Positions 683 through 35,288 of a stretch of DNA of 36,297 nt are shown here, in pieces. The DNA is from a virus. Both the position numbers and the translations under genes were made by a program. Every line of letters starts with the position of its first letter. Within the stretch, counting starts at the first letter, position 1. Under the pieces are notes generated by a model. It saw only the letters and a list, made by a program, of their open reading frames with translations, searched no databases and had not been told where the DNA came from. Location of the stretch: the IMG/VR virus record IMGVR_UViG_3300042922_000698, positions 1 through 36,297 of that record, one strand, 5' to 3'.

Positions 683-782
683 GCAAGGCGACATCGCCTT
701 CATAAATGCCAACTTTTAGCGCACGGCTCCTTGAGAGCCATTTCCCTGGACCGAATATAGGAATCGTATTCGGTCTTTTTTT
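683..782 (+). ncRNA. sdsR: SdsR (RyeB) small RNA
   Basis: About 100 nt matching the sigma-S-dependent, Hfq-binding SdsR RNA of enteric bacteria: it begins GCAAGGCG, carries the conserved single-stranded target-pairing stretch AATGCCAACTTTTAGCGCAC, then a middle hairpin (GGCTC..GAGCC) and a terminator hairpin (GACCGAATA..TATTCGGTC) ending in seven T. The -10 element TAATGT at 671-676, with C at -13, fits a sigma-S promoter. In enterics SdsR represses several outer-membrane and mismatch-repair mRNAs. The distal arm of its terminator is the prophage attachment core, so the RNA stays complete after integration, but all DNA downstream is phage. Exact ends are inferred from the family. Confidence 0.9.
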
Positions 783-783
783 G
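766..783. other. attL core (18-bp direct repeat)
   Basis: GTATTCGGTCTTTTTTTG occurs here and again at 34373-34390, bracketing every phage gene. The copy here is the 3' arm and T-tract of the sdsR terminator. Identity ends sharply on both sides (C versus A before it, G versus T after it), as expected for a crossover core shared by attB and attP. Confidence 0.9.
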
Positions 784-851
784 GTTGGCATTTAAAAATA
801 GTAACTTACAATATAATCAATCAGTTAAGCCCAACCCTGTTATCTTCTGTT

Positions 852-1916
852 CTACTCTGCTGGACCCTGTGCCGCCACTTTGCCGCCATTTTTCTTTGCC
901 AATAACGCCAGCGGATTGCAGCGAATTGCATCCTCAAGATGATCGGGCGCGAAGTGCGCATAACGCATCGTCACCCTGATGTCGGAATGCCCGAGAATAC
1001 GCTGCAGCACGATGATGTTTCCCCCGGCCATCATAAAGTGACTGGCAAAGCTATGGCGCAGTACATGGCTCATCTGGCCTTCAGGTAATTCAATACCGGC
1101 CAGGCGAATGACCCGATAAAACTGGCGATAGCACTCTGCAAAAAAACGGCCCTCTTTGTCTTTTAATTCATTATACAGAGCGTTGTCGATGGGTACCGAG
1201 CGGTTCTTTTTGCCTTTGGTATTGATGAAAGTGATTTTGTTTGGGGACAATTGTGAGGCTTTAAGATTCGCGGCTTCACTCCATCGGCACCCGGTTGAAA
1301 GGCAGATTTTGATAATCAGCGTCAGATCAGGGTTATCGTGAACTTGGCAGGCGGCAAACAGCTTTTGTATCTGGGCTTCAGTCAACCATGCCATTTCTTT
1401 CTCTGGCTGATCAAACTCGCGTATATTTTTAAGTGGGTTGGGGTAGCTGATTTCGCCAAGCCGTTCCAGTTCATTAAAAAGAGCCCGAAGGAATGCATGT
1501 TCACAGTTAATGGTACCCGGTGAGACCTTTAACGATTTATCACTGGTTTTGTATCCGTTCTGTATGAGTCCCTGTAAACGCCGATCCCGATAATGTGCCC
1601 AATCCTTCGAAGTGATAGAGGCAGCAACGGGGTTTCCCATACCATTGCAAATAATATTGAGTTTGCCGAGTCGGCCTTTTCTGTCACTTAGCGAGCAACC
1701 GTGCAGTTTGTACCATAGCTCGATAAGTTCGCTAAGCTTGCGGTTATCCTCTTTCTCAGCCAGCCAGGGTTTAGCCTTCATTTCGTCCTGAGTGTATTGC
1801 TCAAAGGCAATGGCTTCGGCACGGGTCCTGAACTGTCGTCTCACTCGTTTACCATCCCTTCCATTGAGATAGCACTCGCAGAGCCACTTACCTGTATTTA
1901 ATTTCCTTATTGCCAT
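852..1916 (-). CDS. int: P2-type tyrosine integrase
   Basis: 354 residues, typical for P2-family integrases. It catalyses recombination between attP and attB, and excision together with a Cox-type factor. The N-terminal arm-binding part starts like P2 Int (MAIRKL, then RRQFRTRAEAIAFEQYT). The catalytic core shows Arg211 (STGCRWSEA), His284 and Arg287 (HVLRHSFASH), His310 (LGHS) and the nucleophile Tyr319 (MRYAHF), so it should be active. The start ATG has the ribosome site AAGGGGGA five bases upstream. The gene ends 68 bases from attL. It lies next to ogr, on the opposite side of the attachment site from cI, unlike P2, and a LexA box covers its promoter. Confidence 0.96.
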   Translation of the reverse strand: MAIRKLNTGKWLCECYLNGRDGKRVRRQFRTRAEAIAFEQYTQDEMKAKPWLAEKEDNRKLSELIELWYKLHGCSLSDRKGRLGKLNIICNGMGNPVAASITSKDWAHYRDRRLQGLIQNGYKTSDKSLKVSPGTINCEHAFLRALFNELERLGEISYPNPLKNIREFDQPEKEMAWLTEAQIQKLFAACQVHDNPDLTLIIKICLSTGCRWSEAANLKASQLSPNKITFINTKGKKNRSVPIDNALYNELKDKEGRFFAECYRQFYRVIRLAGIELPEGQMSHVLRHSFASHFMMAGGNIIVLQRILGHSDIRVTMRYAHFAPDHLEDAIRCNPLALLAKKNGGKVAAQGPAE

Positions 1917-24104: not shown

Positions 24105-24854
24105 CTAAACCTGAGCCGTGATTACACGCCTGACAGCATCATGTAACCTCTGGAAATTAACGCCTTTCCTTGAAGCGCCAAACTCCATTAGCTGATGACC
24201 ACTAAACTTAGTGTCCCTTCTTTTGTCCGACAGCCGACGCGTCAGCAAAGCAAACAGGGACTTACCGCGAATTAAACTCCCTATATTTGATTGAATTTCA
24301 GCATATAGATGCTCAGGATAATGTTCACCTTCCTCCAAAACTAATGAGGAATGATAAAACTCTTGATCATCTAAAACCTTCCCTGGGTGTTCTCGAAAAG
24401 AAAAAGAGTTATTTTGCCTTTGGTATCTGTCCAGTGATAAAGCAAACCATCTTGAGAATAACTGAACTTCATTGACAAACAATCTTTTTTCATCGACAGT
24501 CAAGAGGCTAATCAAATCCCCATCAGAATATAGATCATTTTCAATTGAATACCCAGTGGTTGTAATAATATCATCGAAACCTTCAGGCTTCCCAAAATAA
24601 ACCCATGTATCATTATCTACTATGAAGGCAATGGGAGTTTTGATCTGGCTTTGAGTAATTCTTTGGCGTAATTCCAATACTGAACCTTTACATCCAGCTG
24701 GTAACATATCTACACCCAAGTCCGATAACCCCTCTTCAAGACGCCTATAGAAAATAATATCATCCTTTCCTTCAACTAAAACAGTGGGGATGCTAGTTCT
24801 TTTGAGTAATTCAAAAAGTTCATCCACAGATGGCCTGCGTTTTGCATTACTCAT
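24105..24854 (-). CDS. DUF4435 TOPRIM-like protein (AriB-like, PARIS)
   Basis: 249 residues from the ATG at 24854 (ribosome site AGGGGAG five bases before; an in-frame GTG at 24860 is poorer). The N-terminal TOPRIM-like core has Glu29 and Asp31-Asp32 (VLVEGKDD), Asp80 and Asp82 (FIVDNDTW) and the DUF4435 signature GYSIENDLYS with Glu105. In PARIS systems AriB is held inactive by the ATPase AriA, is released by phage anti-restriction proteins, and then acts as a nuclease (reported to cut tRNA). It starts within five bases of the ATPase stop. Smaller than the described AriB, so it may belong to a related subtype. Confidence 0.8.
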   Translation of the reverse strand: MSNAKRRPSVDELFELLKRTSIPTVLVEGKDDIIFYRRLEEGLSDLGVDMLPAGCKGSVLELRQRITQSQIKTPIAFIVDNDTWVYFGKPEGFDDIITTTGYSIENDLYSDGDLISLLTVDEKRLFVNEVQLFSRWFALSLDRYQRQNNSFSFREHPGKVLDDQEFYHSSLVLEEGEHYPEHLYAEIQSNIGSLIRGKSLFALLTRRLSDKRRDTKFSGHQLMEFGASRKGVNFQRLHDAVRRVITAQV

Positions 24855-24856
24855 TG

Positions 24857-25963
24857 TCACTCCCCTTTATCAACGCCCATCGAAACTTCTTTATCAGGAT
24901 ATTTACCATAAATAAACGGGGAGTGTGTAGCAAATATAAATTGATTAGAAGGATTTTGATTTTGAAGAATTGAAAATATCTGCCTTTGCCAATCAACATG
25001 TAAGCTAAGCTCAGGCTCATCGATGAAAATTACTGAATCTTGATGAAATGCATTATAACAAATAAAACTTAAAAGTTGTTTTTCGCCTGCGGACAAAACA
25101 TCACTATTTACGGCTTCTGCGGCATCGCCAAAATTTAGCCTCTTGCCGAATGAAATCCCCGAGTGTTGAAATAATTTTTCAACCAAGGCCCTAACAGCCT
25201 CATAAGGAACCATCGTTTGTGATCTAAATTCTTCAATCTTTTCTATTTCTTCTCTGGTTTCTGAGAGCAAAGAATCGGCATCTCCATGCTCTCCCTGAGA
25301 TTTTTGATGTCTTTTTATCTTATCAATAACGCTTCTAGATACTTCTTGCTGGAATGAGTTAATCTCCTCTGAAAATGCTGCGTAGCGTCTTAAAAGCAAG
25401 CTGTTAATATCCTTTGTAGATATAGCCGCTACAAATAAATTTGAAGGGTTACTAAATTTTCTTGAAAGAGAATCCAGTGCCTCATCGATTTCTGAAACAG
25501 GCCTTGCACCGGTACGAACCCTAGTATTGCTATTCTGTAATAATGAAAATCCACCTTCAATTCTACGGAATGTTGGAAAGAATATAGACCCACCATTTGC
25601 GAGTAAATAGGACTTGGCTTTTTCTTCAGCCGACTCACCAAAAAAACCTTCTTCGGGAAAGTCAGGGTCATCTTCTAAAGTAAAGCTCTCTCCATTTATG
25701 GTCATTTCTATCTTACAAAAAACATCACCCGTTCTTATGACGGTGCACGTATAAAGAGAGGTCACAACGGTACAAGATTTAAAATCGACTTCCCGCAACG
25801 CATAAATAATATTCCCACTTATTATGAACCAAACTAGTTTCATCAATGTGGTTTTACCGGAACCATTTCGGCCCGTAATCAAATTGAGATCTTCATTAAA
25901 ATTATATTTCTGTTGAGAATTTTTCCCAAATAAACCAACTACAGTAACTGACCTTAGTTTCAT
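24857..25963 (-). CDS. ABC-type AAA ATPase (AriA-like, PARIS)
   Basis: 368 residues with a complete ABC-type ATPase: Walker A GRNGSGKTT (31-39), signature LSAGEKQLLSF (290-300), Walker B VIFIDEPELSLH (311-322) and switch His347 (FATHSPFIYG). The middle (about 95-285) is helical. This architecture, paired with a DUF4435 protein downstream, is that of PARIS AriA, an ATPase that senses phage anti-restriction proteins; AriA is usually longer (over 400 residues), so the subtype is uncertain. Alternatives are other ATPase-TOPRIM pairs such as OLD-like systems. AT-rich, own promoter at 26051-26079, between gpQ and cos: a known type of position for P2-family defence cargo. Confidence 0.82.
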   Translation of the reverse strand: MKLRSVTVVGLFGKNSQQKYNFNEDLNLITGRNGSGKTTLMKLVWFIISGNIIYALREVDFKSCTVVTSLYTCTVIRTGDVFCKIEMTINGESFTLEDDPDFPEEGFFGESAEEKAKSYLLANGGSIFFPTFRRIEGGFSLLQNSNTRVRTGARPVSEIDEALDSLSRKFSNPSNLFVAAISTKDINSLLLRRYAAFSEEINSFQQEVSRSVIDKIKRHQKSQGEHGDADSLLSETREEIEKIEEFRSQTMVPYEAVRALVEKLFQHSGISFGKRLNFGDAAEAVNSDVLSAGEKQLLSFICYNAFHQDSVIFIDEPELSLHVDWQRQIFSILQNQNPSNQFIFATHSPFIYGKYPDKEVSMGVDKGE

Positions 25964-30948: not shown

Positions 30949-31785
30949 ATGCGCATTGAAAAAGCTGTTGGGCCTGAAGTTTTAGAGCGAATGCTTTCTG
31001 CATACGGCTTCAGTATGCAAAAGGAGCTGGCCGAGCATCTGGGTATAGCTAAAAGCAATGTTGCTGGCTGGGTGCAACGCGGGCAGGTTCCGGGTAATGC
31101 TATTGTGCAGTGCGCTTTAGATACTGGCGCTGATGTTAATTGGTTAGTAACAGGCGAACTTGAAAAAGCAAACTCTGTGCCTGAACTGCCTAACCTGACT
31201 GGTAAAGCTGTCTACGATGAAGTTTTGGCTAATGGTGGTAAACCTGTTCTTCGCCGTATCCTTGATGCATATGGATTTACACTGCAAAAGCAACTTTGTG
31301 AATTATTGGATATTTCATCAGGGACGGTCAGTACTTGGGTAAGGCGGAATTATTTTCCTGGTGATGTTGTTGTCACGTGTGCAATCGATACTGGTGTGTC
31401 TCTTAGATGGTTAGCAACCGGGAAAGGGAATTTAAACAAGGAACAAATTTCTATTGATGCTGTAAATGAAATCCCACGTAAGGTTTTAACTTCTGGAGTT
31501 CTAAGTGACTCTGGAAGTTGGACTGTTGATCTTAGCTTTATTAAGCATTCCTTCAAACAGCCAGTTTTTATATCCAGCAACTATGCTTCTTGGATTGTTG
31601 ATATGAATATCACAGATATAAGCAACGGAAAATGGCTTCTAGGTATTGATGATAAATACGACGTTTACGATATAACAGTCTTACCAGGCCGTAAAATTGA
31701 GGTTGTTAAAACTAATAATTTTATATGCGGAATCGATGAAGTAAAGGCTGTGGGTAAAGTAATTATTACCTTAGTAACTGACTGA
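30949..31785 (+). CDS. cI: CI-type phage repressor with two helix-turn-helix domains
   Basis: 278 residues; the phage 186 CI is 192. The N-terminal DNA-binding domain occurs twice in tandem, at about residues 11-70 and 100-159. The copies align without gaps and are 50 percent identical (30 of 60), both having AYGF..QK.L, a turn helix (KSNVAGWVQRG; GTVSTWVRRN), CA.DTG and W L.TG. The C-terminal domain (about 180-278, with LPGRKIEVV and FICGIDEVKAVGKVI) resembles that of 186 CI, which forms higher-order oligomers. It represses the divergent cox promoter. AGGG lies seven bases before the ATG. cI probably starts a transcript that continues into the cargo genes. Confidence 0.92.
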   Translation: MRIEKAVGPEVLERMLSAYGFSMQKELAEHLGIAKSNVAGWVQRGQVPGNAIVQCALDTGADVNWLVTGELEKANSVPELPNLTGKAVYDEVLANGGKPVLRRILDAYGFTLQKQLCELLDISSGTVSTWVRRNYFPGDVVVTCAIDTGVSLRWLATGKGNLNKEQISIDAVNEIPRKVLTSGVLSDSGSWTVDLSFIKHSFKQPVFISSNYASWIVDMNITDISNGKWLLGIDDKYDVYDITVLPGRKIEVVKTNNFICGIDEVKAVGKVIITLVTD

Positions 31786-31828
31786 TGTGGCGTATATCAG
31801 TGTTTTTTTGTTTTTTGAAGGAATTACT

Positions 31829-32872
31829 ATGAGGCGGGAGTCTTTAGATTTTGAATGTTTAGTTAAAGAAATATTCCAACACTTATCTTGTGATTTAAAA
31901 AGTGATTGGAATGATAAGTTTGATATGGTTTTTGATTGGAATGATTCTGAGTACGTTTCCGAGATAAAATATTATCGAACAATTAGGGCGCAGGTTTCTC
32001 TTATTAATCGTGCTATTTTTCAATTTAAGAGAATTAAAGATGCTCGGCAGAATTTTATTGATGATGGCGTTGGTGGGCTATTGATTATTTCATCATATCT
32101 TGAGTCAGGGTTAAAGAATGTTATAGAAAATGAAGAGGACATTGTAATTGTTGATTTGTATGATCTTCTGGCATTAACATCTGAATTACCCGAACATAGA
32201 GAGAAGCTAATAAAATTACTTGAGATTCCTGACGGGTTGATTGATGCAAATAAAGGAAGGGATTTAGAAGAAATATTTGCTCGAGAAGATAGTTTTCATG
32301 ACAGGGTTAATCGCTCTGTACCTGTTGAAGATGACCCTCAAAATAATGAGCAGTTGATATCCAGATTGTTAGACCTACCTGCTGGTAAAAAACATTGGAA
32401 GAGTTATGAGACTTTAATGATTGAAATACTAAAGTTCCTTTTTGAGGATGATTTAAAAGGATGGTATACGCAATATGAAAGTGAGAATAAATTAAACAGA
32501 TATGATTGTGTTTGCGGAATAAAGAAAACCACAGAGTTTTGGTCGTTATTAATTGAACAGTTAAAGTCTAATTATTTATTAATCGAATTTAAAAACTATA
32601 GTGATGAGATCACTCAGGGTGAAGTGTTGACCACTGAGAAGTATCTATTTGAAAATGCTTTTAGAAAAGTCGCTTTGATATTTTGTAGGAAAGGGGCTAA
32701 TCACTCAGCGTTGCAAATGTGCATGGGGGCTATGAGAGAAAGTGGGCGTCTTATACTTGTTCTCGATGATAAAGATGTTGTCGAGATGATTCATAGTAAA
32801 GAAAATGGGAGTGATCCATCTGATTTTTTGCATCAAAAAGTCGATGATTTTCTGATGAGATTATCCAGATAA
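31829..32872 (+). CDS. Cargo protein with two PD-(D/E)xK-like nuclease cores
   Basis: 347 residues from the ATG at 31829 (AAGGA, six bases before); a GTG-like upstream start at 31787 is not supported. I recognise no named family. The N-terminal domain looks Mrr-like: helix FECLVKEIFQHL, Asp32/Asp36 and Glu45-x-Lys47 (SEIKYYR), then IISSYLE. The C-terminal domain repeats the plan: helix YETLMIEILKFL, Asp226 (RYDCV), Glu253-x-Lys255 (LLIEFKNY), then TTEKYLFENAF and ALIFCRKGA. Both could be active nucleases of the restriction-endonuclease fold. AT-rich, 43 bases after cI, and reading the same way, so expressed in the lysogen. An anti-phage role is inferred. Confidence 0.82.
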   Translation: MRRESLDFECLVKEIFQHLSCDLKSDWNDKFDMVFDWNDSEYVSEIKYYRTIRAQVSLINRAIFQFKRIKDARQNFIDDGVGGLLIISSYLESGLKNVIENEEDIVIVDLYDLLALTSELPEHREKLIKLLEIPDGLIDANKGRDLEEIFAREDSFHDRVNRSVPVEDDPQNNEQLISRLLDLPAGKKHWKSYETLMIEILKFLFEDDLKGWYTQYESENKLNRYDCVCGIKKTTEFWSLLIEQLKSNYLLIEFKNYSDEITQGEVLTTEKYLFENAFRKVALIFCRKGANHSALQMCMGAMRESGRLILVLDDKDVVEMIHSKENGSDPSDFLHQKVDDFLMRLSR

Positions 32873-32960
32873 AGACTATCAAAATAATAATAAATGGTTT
32901 GCAACTCTAAGTGGCGCTATTCAATTTAAAAGTATAATTGAATGCAGGAGAAGAATTTCA

Positions 32961-33734
32961 ATGGTTTGGTTTCTAGCAAGTATAACCGAAGTTTTACAAC
33001 TGATGAAGTCAATTCCTATAGCATTTATCGGTGCAGCTTTTGGGATCTACTTTTCATATATGAAGTTAACTTCAAAAATAACTTATTCATTTTCAGTGTC
33101 CCCTAGGTTTTATGGTGACAAGCTGACCGATTTTGTCTTTCAAAATCGACGCGATAGGACTTATGTTATCCAGAAGGTTTTCTGCAAATATGCTGATGGT
33201 GAAATTTCAAGGTTGAAGGATTTTCATCCACCATTAATATTGAAACCTTATGAGGCTATTGTAGTAGAATTTGAAGATGTCAGCGAGTGGCAGAGTCTAG
33301 ATGGTATCGCTTATAAGCCTAATCATATGGACTCATTCGAAATTTTCGCCTTTACTCATGGTAAAGGTGTTATCAAATGCAAAAGAGAATATAAATCTAA
33401 ATACAAAGAATATACAGTAAAGCCATTTACATCAAGTTTTGATGACCTTATATTGCAGGGAGATATGTTTTTTGTTCTCGCCGGCTGGCAGGGGAAAAAA
33501 TCCGTTAAGATTGTTTTCTATCGTTCAGGCTTTCTTGACGGCTCAGAAAATTTTGGTGGGTATAACTATATAGATATTAAAGGTTCACCATGTATTAAAC
33601 TTGAGGATATAACCAAGGTTGTTTTTAAAAAAGGTTTTGATAAACAATGGGACTTCTTCAGAATTTATAGCGTTGAAAACTACAAACTAAATGTAGTTTT
33701 CACTCATCGCTCGAAAGATAACAATGAAGGTTAA
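32961..33734 (+). CDS. Cargo protein, one membrane anchor, unknown function
   Basis: 257 residues with one hydrophobic N-terminal segment (about 16-34, SIPIAFIGAAFGIYFSYM) and a large beta-rich soluble domain (PRFYGDKLTDFVFQNRRDRT, ILKPYEAIVVEFEDVSEW, MFFVLAGWQGKKSVKIVFY). It is probably anchored in the inner membrane; no catalytic motif is seen. AGGAG lies ten bases before the ATG. AT-rich, between the double-nuclease gene and the EACC1-like gene, all on the plus strand. I do not recognise the family. Confidence 0.75.
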   Translation: MVWFLASITEVLQLMKSIPIAFIGAAFGIYFSYMKLTSKITYSFSVSPRFYGDKLTDFVFQNRRDRTYVIQKVFCKYADGEISRLKDFHPPLILKPYEAIVVEFEDVSEWQSLDGIAYKPNHMDSFEIFAFTHGKGVIKCKREYKSKYKEYTVKPFTSSFDDLILQGDMFFVLAGWQGKKSVKIVFYRSGFLDGSENFGGYNYIDIKGSPCIKLEDITKVVFKKGFDKQWDFFRIYSVENYKLNVVFTHRSKDNNEG

Positions 33735-33964
33735 TATCGAAATGTCAAAGGTTAACGATCTTGTTATTCTTAGATAATATGACAGTTGCTTCATTTTTAG
33801 GGATAGTTAGTTGATTTACATCGACGATGCGATGATAGTTTTTTATTTTTAACGATGTTTTAAATGAAAAGGAAATGTTTCTTCCTAATAGAATAGTTAT
33901 TCCACTATTTAAAAATGCAAATGCTAGTGCTAATCTTTTAAAAAAAGGGAGTTTGTCAATTAAA

Positions 33965-34297
33965 ATGAAAAGTTTCACAGATTCAGTCCTCTTGAGAGCT
34001 CGATGGGACATTATAAATGAAATAAAAAAAGAACTCGAACAACATGGGCATAGTTTTTCAAGAGGCCCAATGTGTTTTTCAGTTGGCAACCTTGAATTTA
34101 TCAGTGTCGCGCTTCCAGTGGCAGGAGCTGTAGCTGGGGCACTAGCTACCATTATTGTTGCCTGCGTTAGCCGTGGTAAGAAGATACGTGTGGTTTTTGA
34201 AGGCGATAAGGTTAAAGAGATTGATGCTTCAAATTATAAACAAGAAGAAATAATTGAGATGATTAAGGAAGTCAAAAGAATTGACATCTGTGATTAG
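33965..34297 (+). CDS. Small cargo protein, EACC1-like (effector-associated)
   Basis: About 110 residues from the ATG at 33965 (MKSFTDSVLLRARWDIINEI); a longer frame starts at 33875. A helical N-terminus is followed by a glycine/alanine-rich hydrophobic segment (ISVALPVAGAVAGALATIIV), then a basic turn and RVVFEGDKVKEIDASNYKQE with a final helix. This order resembles the EACC1 domain (a short membrane or interface helix followed by a strand-turn-strand and helix) found beside effector genes in conflict systems; the likeness is weak and by eye only. The start is uncertain. A terminator follows, and attR is 75 bases away. Confidence 0.6.
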   Translation: MKSFTDSVLLRARWDIINEIKKELEQHGHSFSRGPMCFSVGNLEFISVALPVAGAVAGALATIIVACVSRGKKIRVVFEGDKVKEIDASNYKQEEIIEMIKEVKRIDICD

Positions 34298-34358: not shown

Positions 34359-34372
34359 AATGATATAAAATA

Positions 34373-34390
34373 GTATTCGGTCTTTTTTTG
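34373..34390. other. attR core (18-bp direct repeat)
   Basis: Exact copy of 766-783. Here the sequence before it is phage DNA (…GATATAAAATA) and so no sdsR hairpin can form; the sequence after it is host. Confidence 0.9.
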
Positions 34391-34513
34391 TTTGTGTGTA
34401 ACGTTCAGAAACTAACCAGAGTGCCTCAAGAAGATAAATTACTGGAGAGGGTAAGAGATTATCGCGTCCCGCACTTGTCCTCTGGAAGTAGCCGCAACAA
34501 ACAGAAGAAATAG

Positions 34514-34536: not shown

Positions 34537-34836
34537 TTATTTACCCAACCAGCGTCCGGCCTGTGCAGACTCAATTAACAGACGAATAGTCAGCGGATCG
34601 TGCGGTGCGTTGAAATCTTCCGGGAAATATTCGGCAAACGTGATAGAGCCGGGATTAATACCAAATCTGTCAGCATACCGCTCTAGCAATTCATACGCGT
34701 CAAGAGGATCCATGCGAAAGTCATTGTTCAGAGCGGTATCCCGCTCAAGCTTATAACGTCTTAACGTAAACAAACTTCTGCCGTTATAATCTTCAACCAG
34801 CGCAAATACAGCTTTCTCTATATCCTCACTTACCAT
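34537..34836 (-). CDS. DUF1493 family protein
   Basis: 99 residues with the family pattern LRRYKLERDTALNNDFRMD, GYD-like DAYELLERYADRFGI and FAEYFPEDFNAP, ending ESAQAGRWLGK. DUF1493 proteins are acyl-carrier-like in outline and are encoded beside STM2901-type proteins in Salmonella and related bacteria; the function is unknown. Its start lies inside the last codons of the upstream gene (seven-base overlap), so the pair is coupled. Host flank. Confidence 0.88.
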   Translation of the reverse strand: MVSEDIEKAVFALVEDYNGRSLFTLRRYKLERDTALNNDFRMDPLDAYELLERYADRFGINPGSITFAEYFPEDFNAPHDPLTIRLLIESAQAGRWLGK

Positions 34837-35288
34837 ATCTTGTCGTCCTTATGAGCAATAAGGTTATATTTTACCGTAGTTTTCCAGCCAATTTCTGCCA
34901 CATCAACGGCCATAATTACCCAGCCTAAAACGGGGATTGTGCGACCGACGAACGTCCCCAGCTTGTGAGTCATTAACATCTTAATTTGAAGAGGATTTTT
35001 AGGGTTCTGTATCCACGTGGGTAATCTGAATGGAAGACGGTAATCCCGTAACAGCTTTCGAGAATAGACCGAAGCATAAGAGGTGCCTTTCCATGCTCCG
35101 TTTAGCTTACCGGATACGTCAATCGTATTTTGTCCCGAGTAAATCGCAACCAGAGCGATGATATCCTTTGTACCGCTGAAGTGCTCTGCAGTCACATCAA
35201 TCATTATCCAGAAATAAAGCTCTCCTGCAGAAAGGTTAGTAAGTCCGCCATAGAAGTAAGTTCCGTTTAACTGCTCCGTTGTATCCAT
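34830..35288 (-). CDS. STM2901 family protein
   Basis: 152 residues. The N-terminus (MDTTEQLNGTYFYGGLTNLS) and the blocks IALVAIYSGQNTIDVSGKL and RTIPVLGWVIMAVDVAEIGW match the STM2901 family from Salmonella. Two hydrophobic stretches (about 22-34 and 117-131) suggest membrane association. It is the first gene of a two-gene unit with DUF1493. Function unknown; the pair is often near horizontally acquired DNA, which fits its place next to the prophage. Confidence 0.85.
   Translation of the reverse strand: MDTTEQLNGTYFYGGLTNLSAGELYFWIMIDVTAEHFSGTKDIIALVAIYSGQNTIDVSGKLNGAWKGTSYASVYSRKLLRDYRLPFRLPTWIQNPKNPLQIKMLMTHKLGTFVGRTIPVLGWVIMAVDVAEIGWKTTVKYNLIAHKDDKIW

Follow-up and report, generated by a model that had tools for sequence, protein, structure and literature searches.

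A gene for a predicted tandem nuclease behind the repressor of a P2-like prophage, with a possible role in anti-phage defence

The prophage and the position of the nuclease gene

The window analyzed here, the whole 36,297-nucleotide stretch of viral record IMGVR_UViG_3300042922_000698, carries a P2-like prophage, the relevant features of which are collected in Table 1. The gene under study starts with an ATG codon preceded by a GAAGGA Shine-Dalgarno sequence. As originally predicted, it lies right behind the cI-type repressor gene, on the same strand and after a gap of 43 bp. This interval is overlapped by a weak terminator-like hairpin, which is not kept in locus L003, where a homolog with 94% identity is found. 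Judging by gene order, expression of the nuclease from the cI transcript in the lysogen is plausible.

The gene had also been placed where P2 carries int. In the linear prophage, the integrase gene is at the other end; given the att repeats and the position of int, the cargo region (31829-34297) ends at attR in the prophage and lies between cI and attP-int once the genome is circular. The integration site is the 3' terminator of sdsR/ryeA (645-787), recognized by the Rfam family SdsR_RyeB at 686-782 (E = 7e-18), and the 26-bp att repeat restores a terminator-like sequence. The AT richness pointed out for this region is apparent from its GC content, 33.6% for the cargo versus 55.8% for the late genes. 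Two further AT-rich genes (32961-33734 and 33875-34297) separate the nuclease gene from attR and accompany it only in the close relatives L001 to L003. Outside attR, two small genes (phrog_20802 and phrog_21993; 34537-35288, minus strand) separate the prophage from additional flanking DNA.

Rousset et al. 2022 (PMC9122126) describe an anti-phage hotspot between cI and int in P2-related phages of Vibrionaceae and give the A-Q (cos) interval as the main hotspot of P2. In the prophage studied here, the A-Q interval, bounded by gpA and the portal gene, carries a divergent PARIS-like pair, made up of a 368-residue AAA ATPase and a 251-residue DUF4435 protein. The best PADLOC matches of this pair are AriA (1.3e-29) and AriB (4.2e-8), and its Pfam matches are PF14491 (1e-6) and PF13304 (8.5e-22). 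PARIS and the other systems of the P2/P4 hotspots resemble the nuclease gene in genomic setting but not in their proteins, so that only the address is common to them.

Table 1. Positions of the prophage features discussed in the text (numbering of the window)
Feature	Position	Strand	Evidence
attL core repeat, 3' end (terminator) of host sRNA gene sdsR	762..787	+	direct repeat; Rfam
Integrase gene, opposite prophage end	852..1916	-	phrog_1 integrase, 4e-79
PARIS-like AAA ATPase (AriA) and DUF4435 (AriB) pair, cos-proximal hotspot	24105..25963	-	PADLOC, Pfam
cI-type repressor gene, directly upstream of nuclease gene	30949..31785	+	PF07022, 6.6e-50; PF16452, 3e-19
Terminator-like weak hairpin and T-run, between cI and nuclease gene	31781..31807	+	-8.1 kcal/mol; z -0.9 to -1.4
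Tandem nuclease gene (predicted), phrog_31260 family, 347 aa	31829..32872	+	ORF and translation
N-terminal Mrr_cat-type domain (predicted), ~residues 1-135 (D32, E45-x-K47)	31829..32233	+	AlphaFold, family profile matches
E45-I-K47 motif codons	31961..31969	+	E/D in 88/97, K/R in 97/97 family rows
Linker, ~residues 136-170, fast-evolving	32234..32338	+	pLDDT 55-60 around residues 151-170
C-terminal FokI-like/PDC-M36A-type domain (predicted), residues 171-347	32339..32869	+	PDC-M36A match, AF2, Foldseek
E253-F-K255 motif codons	32585..32593	+	E/D in 97/97, K in 97/97 family rows
Downstream cargo gene, 257 aa, no assigned function	32961..33734	+	phrog_14996, 1.3e-13
Downstream cargo gene, 140 aa	33875..34297	+	no family match
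attR core repeat	34369..34394	+	matches 762-787, 92% over 26 bp, including 18-20 exact bases

Evidence for two nuclease domains in one chain

The original prediction took E45-x-K47 and E253-x-K255 for the active sites of two nucleases, and both motifs are present at the positions claimed. The protein has six acidic-x-Lys sites with a preceding acidic residue, compared with 4.7 in shuffled sequences, and shuffled versions of this Lys- and Glu-rich chain reach two or more such sites in 97% of cases (P = 0.97); we therefore dropped the motif pattern alone as evidence for two nucleases. Searches with the protein itself gave no match to Pfam or NCBIfam profiles (PF04471, the Mrr_cat family, had 0 matches, the sequence being too divergent), to phages by tblastn, or to Escherichia coli DNA, and a sequence search of the PDB returned only noise. 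The PHROGs v4 search placed residues 6 to 347 in phrog_31260 (E = 1.4e-83), a cluster of unknown function. It is the homologs, rather than motifs in a single sequence, that make a strong case for the predicted two-nuclease architecture.

AlphaFold, run on an alignment of 85 sequences, returned a model with two complete REase-type alpha/beta cores (pLDDT 90, pTM 0.85), in which the strands spanning residues 40-47 and 249-255 carry the ExK motifs. When the two halves were compared by hhalign, EIK47 aligned with EFK255 (81% probability, E = 1.2e-5). Both domains have the features by which the PD-(D/E)xK superfamily is recognized, namely, an alpha/beta core with an acidic residue and a (D/E)xK motif on adjacent strands. 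The claim of two such cores in one chain is thus borne out by fold, by profiles and by conservation across 97 aligned family members.

The modeled N-terminal domain consists of a helix (2-18), two strands (33-37 and 40-47), a helix (56-72), a strand (82-87), a helix (93-103) and a last strand (105-108). Among the 85 family members, 68 match PF04471, the best with 2.4e-13; from these homologs and the model, the N-terminal half is predicted to be of the Mrr_cat type. The linker that follows is modeled as helical and poorly ordered. Since whole-chain Foldseek searches were weak, the placement of the domains being different, the C-terminal domain was folded and searched alone. The resulting AF2 model (pLDDT 93, pTM 0.90) has its site residues at E194, D226, E253-x-K255 and Q263, and its nearest enzyme according to Foldseek is the cleavage domain of FokI (TMq ~0.6). 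Matches to RPB5 in the same search we take to reflect the REase-like fold known in that protein rather than kinship. Profile searches led to Mrr_cat for the first half, through the homologs, and for the second to the C-terminal domain of the PADLOC candidate PDC-M36A, of which positions 282-450/457 match only residues 173-340 (E = 3.7e-9); the C-terminal domains of relatives match PDC-M36A with E values of up to 1e-15.

Conservation, distribution and domain fusions of the family

Conservation was counted over 97 aligned family rows. At the N-terminal site, D32 is found in 94 of 94 (with 3 gaps), an acidic residue at position 45 in 88 of 97, and K or R at position 47 in all 97. The C-terminal site is invariant at E194, D226, E/D253 and K255 (97/97 each), and Q263 is kept in 96 of 97. 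About nine members have lost the N-terminal site, with the glutamate replaced by A, Q, T or S, and all of these retain the C-terminal site, from which we infer that the C-terminal domain is the indispensable cutter. In the pairwise comparison with the homolog in L003, dN/dS is 0.17 overall, 0.16 for the N-terminal domain and 0.08 for the C-terminal domain. The linker value of about 1.5 rests on few changes. Both nuclease domains are therefore under purifying selection, and the linker is relaxed. A near-identical prophage of an isolate (L002/L090, a single contig) has a nonsense mutation at codon 236 of the nuclease gene (L090 8001-9041), so the gene is dispensable at least sometimes.

The family was recovered at more than 100 loci from viral and genome collections, in Pseudomonadota, Bacteroidota, Bacillota, Acidobacteriota, Verrucomicrobiota and Cyanobacteriota, and RefSeq labels some of the relatives "restriction endonuclease." By tblastn, relatives with 39 to 24% identity were also found on plasmids of rhizobia and agrobacteria. 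Among 399 sampled Pseudomonadota genomes, both halves were matched only in the seed genome and in one degraded or split copy, a frequency of full-length genes of about 1 in 400. On the family tree, the viral label was gained or lost at least five times on supported branches. Taken together, these sequence data depict a family that is rare, patchy over at least six phyla and mobile, with several separate acquisitions by phages. An apparent 982-residue N-terminal extension of the L106 protein was discarded as a spurious open frame.

Such a distribution bears on whether the gene serves the phage itself. A junction-resolving or recombination/repair nuclease that helps the P2-like phage to replicate or integrate would be in keeping with the Mrr_cat fold, which is common to Hjc-type resolvases, and with the weak Hjc matches of a few members. 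Yet full-length copies are rare and patchy, the accessory sites that they occupy differ across phages and include bacterial plasmids, and one close prophage carries a broken copy. Rarity, scattered sites and a broken copy are unlike an essential phage function, and we regard this alternative as very improbable. A weapon directed at other mobile elements, such as P4-type satellites, plasmids or other prophages, rather than at phages would rely on the same mechanism and would suit the relatives that reside on large conjugative plasmids of rhizobia and in phages that have satellites; nothing direct separates it from anti-phage action, and we consider it improbable as an explanation in its own right.

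In a set of other P2-like phages, the nuclease gene lies between tail completion gene S and baseplate gene V, another accessory (moron) site. Upstream of it at this site, several of these phages have a companion gene of about 280 codons (L094 7079-7882, L105 6968-7810, L016 6919-7779 and L098); a PHROGs search with the L105 companion gave no match. Bacterial copies (L012, L020, L006, L008 and L011) have OLD-like AAA/TOPRIM genes or OLD plus helicase genes (Gabija type) as neighbors. An obligate partner gene was considered and rejected, since no neighbor family recurs beside the nuclease outside related phages.

Some relatives carry further domains in the same chain. A C5-methylase-like domain is fused ahead of both nuclease domains in proteins of about 640 residues (L046, L050, L051, L064, L068, L071, L073, L083 and L088), mostly from Lachnospiraceae and related Bacillota, L083 being from Melainabacteria; these domains lack a recognizable catalytic PC motif. 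In L060 and L082, a TIR domain is fused to the tandem nuclease, whereas in L112 a TIR-Mrr protein and the C-terminal nuclease are encoded by two overlapping genes. Other relatives have a ResIII fragment as an N-terminal extension. The swapping of TIR, degenerate C5-methylase and ResIII-type domains is typical of defense proteins. A genuine PDC-M36A protein (L113 760-2127) and a P-loop ATPase-like protein (L115 1261-3285) likewise have the C-terminal nuclease domain as their last part, and the domain is therefore a portable module.

These fusions bring in the strongest rival to a restriction enzyme, an abortive-infection effector that would remain dormant until a phage signal, received through its N-terminal part or a partner, set it to degrade cellular and phage DNA and kill the cell. 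A TIR or degenerate C5-methylase domain ahead of both nuclease domains, the split genes of L112, and a C-terminal domain that behaves like a portable effector in L113 and L115 would all fit such a role, as would the absence of a visible self-protection gene. However, the prophage protein has no extra sensor domain, and no toxin- or antitoxin-like partner is conserved beside the family. We consider this rival unlikely, though with an appreciable chance of being correct.

Comparison with known systems and a candidate role in defense

Several known systems share part of this architecture. The likeness to Mrr lies in the N-terminal half, assigned to Mrr_cat through most of the homologs, with the D and the E-x-K in register and no cognate methylase; the difference is a second, distinct nuclease domain fused C-terminally. 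No scanned member has the winged-helix domain Mrr_N, and the chain begins with the nuclease core. PDC-M36A (PDLC04597/04598) has a homologous stretch of about 165 C-terminal residues, but its first 280 or so residues, in the place of Mrr_cat, are unrelated. While the true member in L113 matches its PADLOC model with 3e-223, the tandem nuclease matches by its C-terminal half only and not over the full length, and we rejected its membership of PDC-M36. No paper naming PDC-M36 was found in the open-access literature. The cleavage domains of FokI and Nt.BspD6I are the best enzyme fold match of the C-terminal domain, at about 10% identity. FokI, in contrast, dimerizes before it cuts and has both specific DNA recognition domains and a partner methylase; in the tandem nuclease, its extra parts are replaced by the second nuclease domain. 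Wolbachia CifB-type proteins are single chains with two PD-(D/E)xK modules, and they are alike in having two REase-type domains per chain but different in their biology.

Other systems find no counterpart. Pfam detected no methylase domain of the type II or IIG kind in the nuclease chain, and a motif scan of the long ORFs of the whole window found no methylase-like DPPY or PCQ motifs. No McrB-type GTPase, as in McrBC, neighbors the gene, and the protein has no Pfam or PADLOC match to Shedu (DUF4263/SduA). The suggestion that the protein belongs to no named defense family is borne out, no full-length PADLOC model matching the chain; it needs qualifying in that the N-terminal domain is predicted to be of the Mrr_cat type and the C-terminal domain is common to the candidate PDC-M36A. 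The tandem architecture is found in no named defense system, nor do the literature titles and passages found describe it; the whole protein is listed in PHROGs, without a function, as phrog_31260.

The explanation we favor, with slightly better than even confidence, is a single-gene anti-phage DNA nuclease of the prophage, acting in a type IV or methylase-independent style, as the sequence comparisons and models suggest. The nuclease would probably be produced in the lysogen from the cargo on the cI side. Its Mrr_cat-type N-terminal domain would engage or inspect DNA and, where the N-terminal site is intact, cut or nick it, and the strictly conserved FokI-like C-terminal domain would be the main cutter. 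With two sites per chain, the enzyme could break both strands of phage DNA, or of other mobile DNA, entering the cell without having to dimerize. Host and prophage DNA would be tolerated through some recognition rule, which may involve modification, DNA ends or replication state. No methylase or other means of self-protection is visible, and a constitutive nuclease would therefore need selectivity or gating. That the protein cuts DNA, that competing phages are its target and that it acts selectively is what we infer. Protection of the lysogen by the nuclease, as first proposed, is plausible in view of its context: the hotspot position, the PARIS-like pair and the OLD- or Gabija-type neighbors of relatives.

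More tentatively, and with less than even confidence, the family may constitute an undescribed, widespread class of defense nucleases that combines Mrr-type inspection or nicking with FokI-like cutting in one methylase-independent chain, its core being fitted in other bacteria with different N-terminal sensors, of the TIR, inactive C5-methylase or helicase type. If phages are indeed restricted by it, a gene of 1 kb in a known prophage hotspot would be a compact single-protein defense with an architecture named in no catalog. This would raise the question of how a nuclease without a methylase spares its host. Relatives in which an inactive methylase, a TIR or a helicase-like domain is fused to the tandem nuclease suggest one core with varied sensors and would provide a natural set for comparison.
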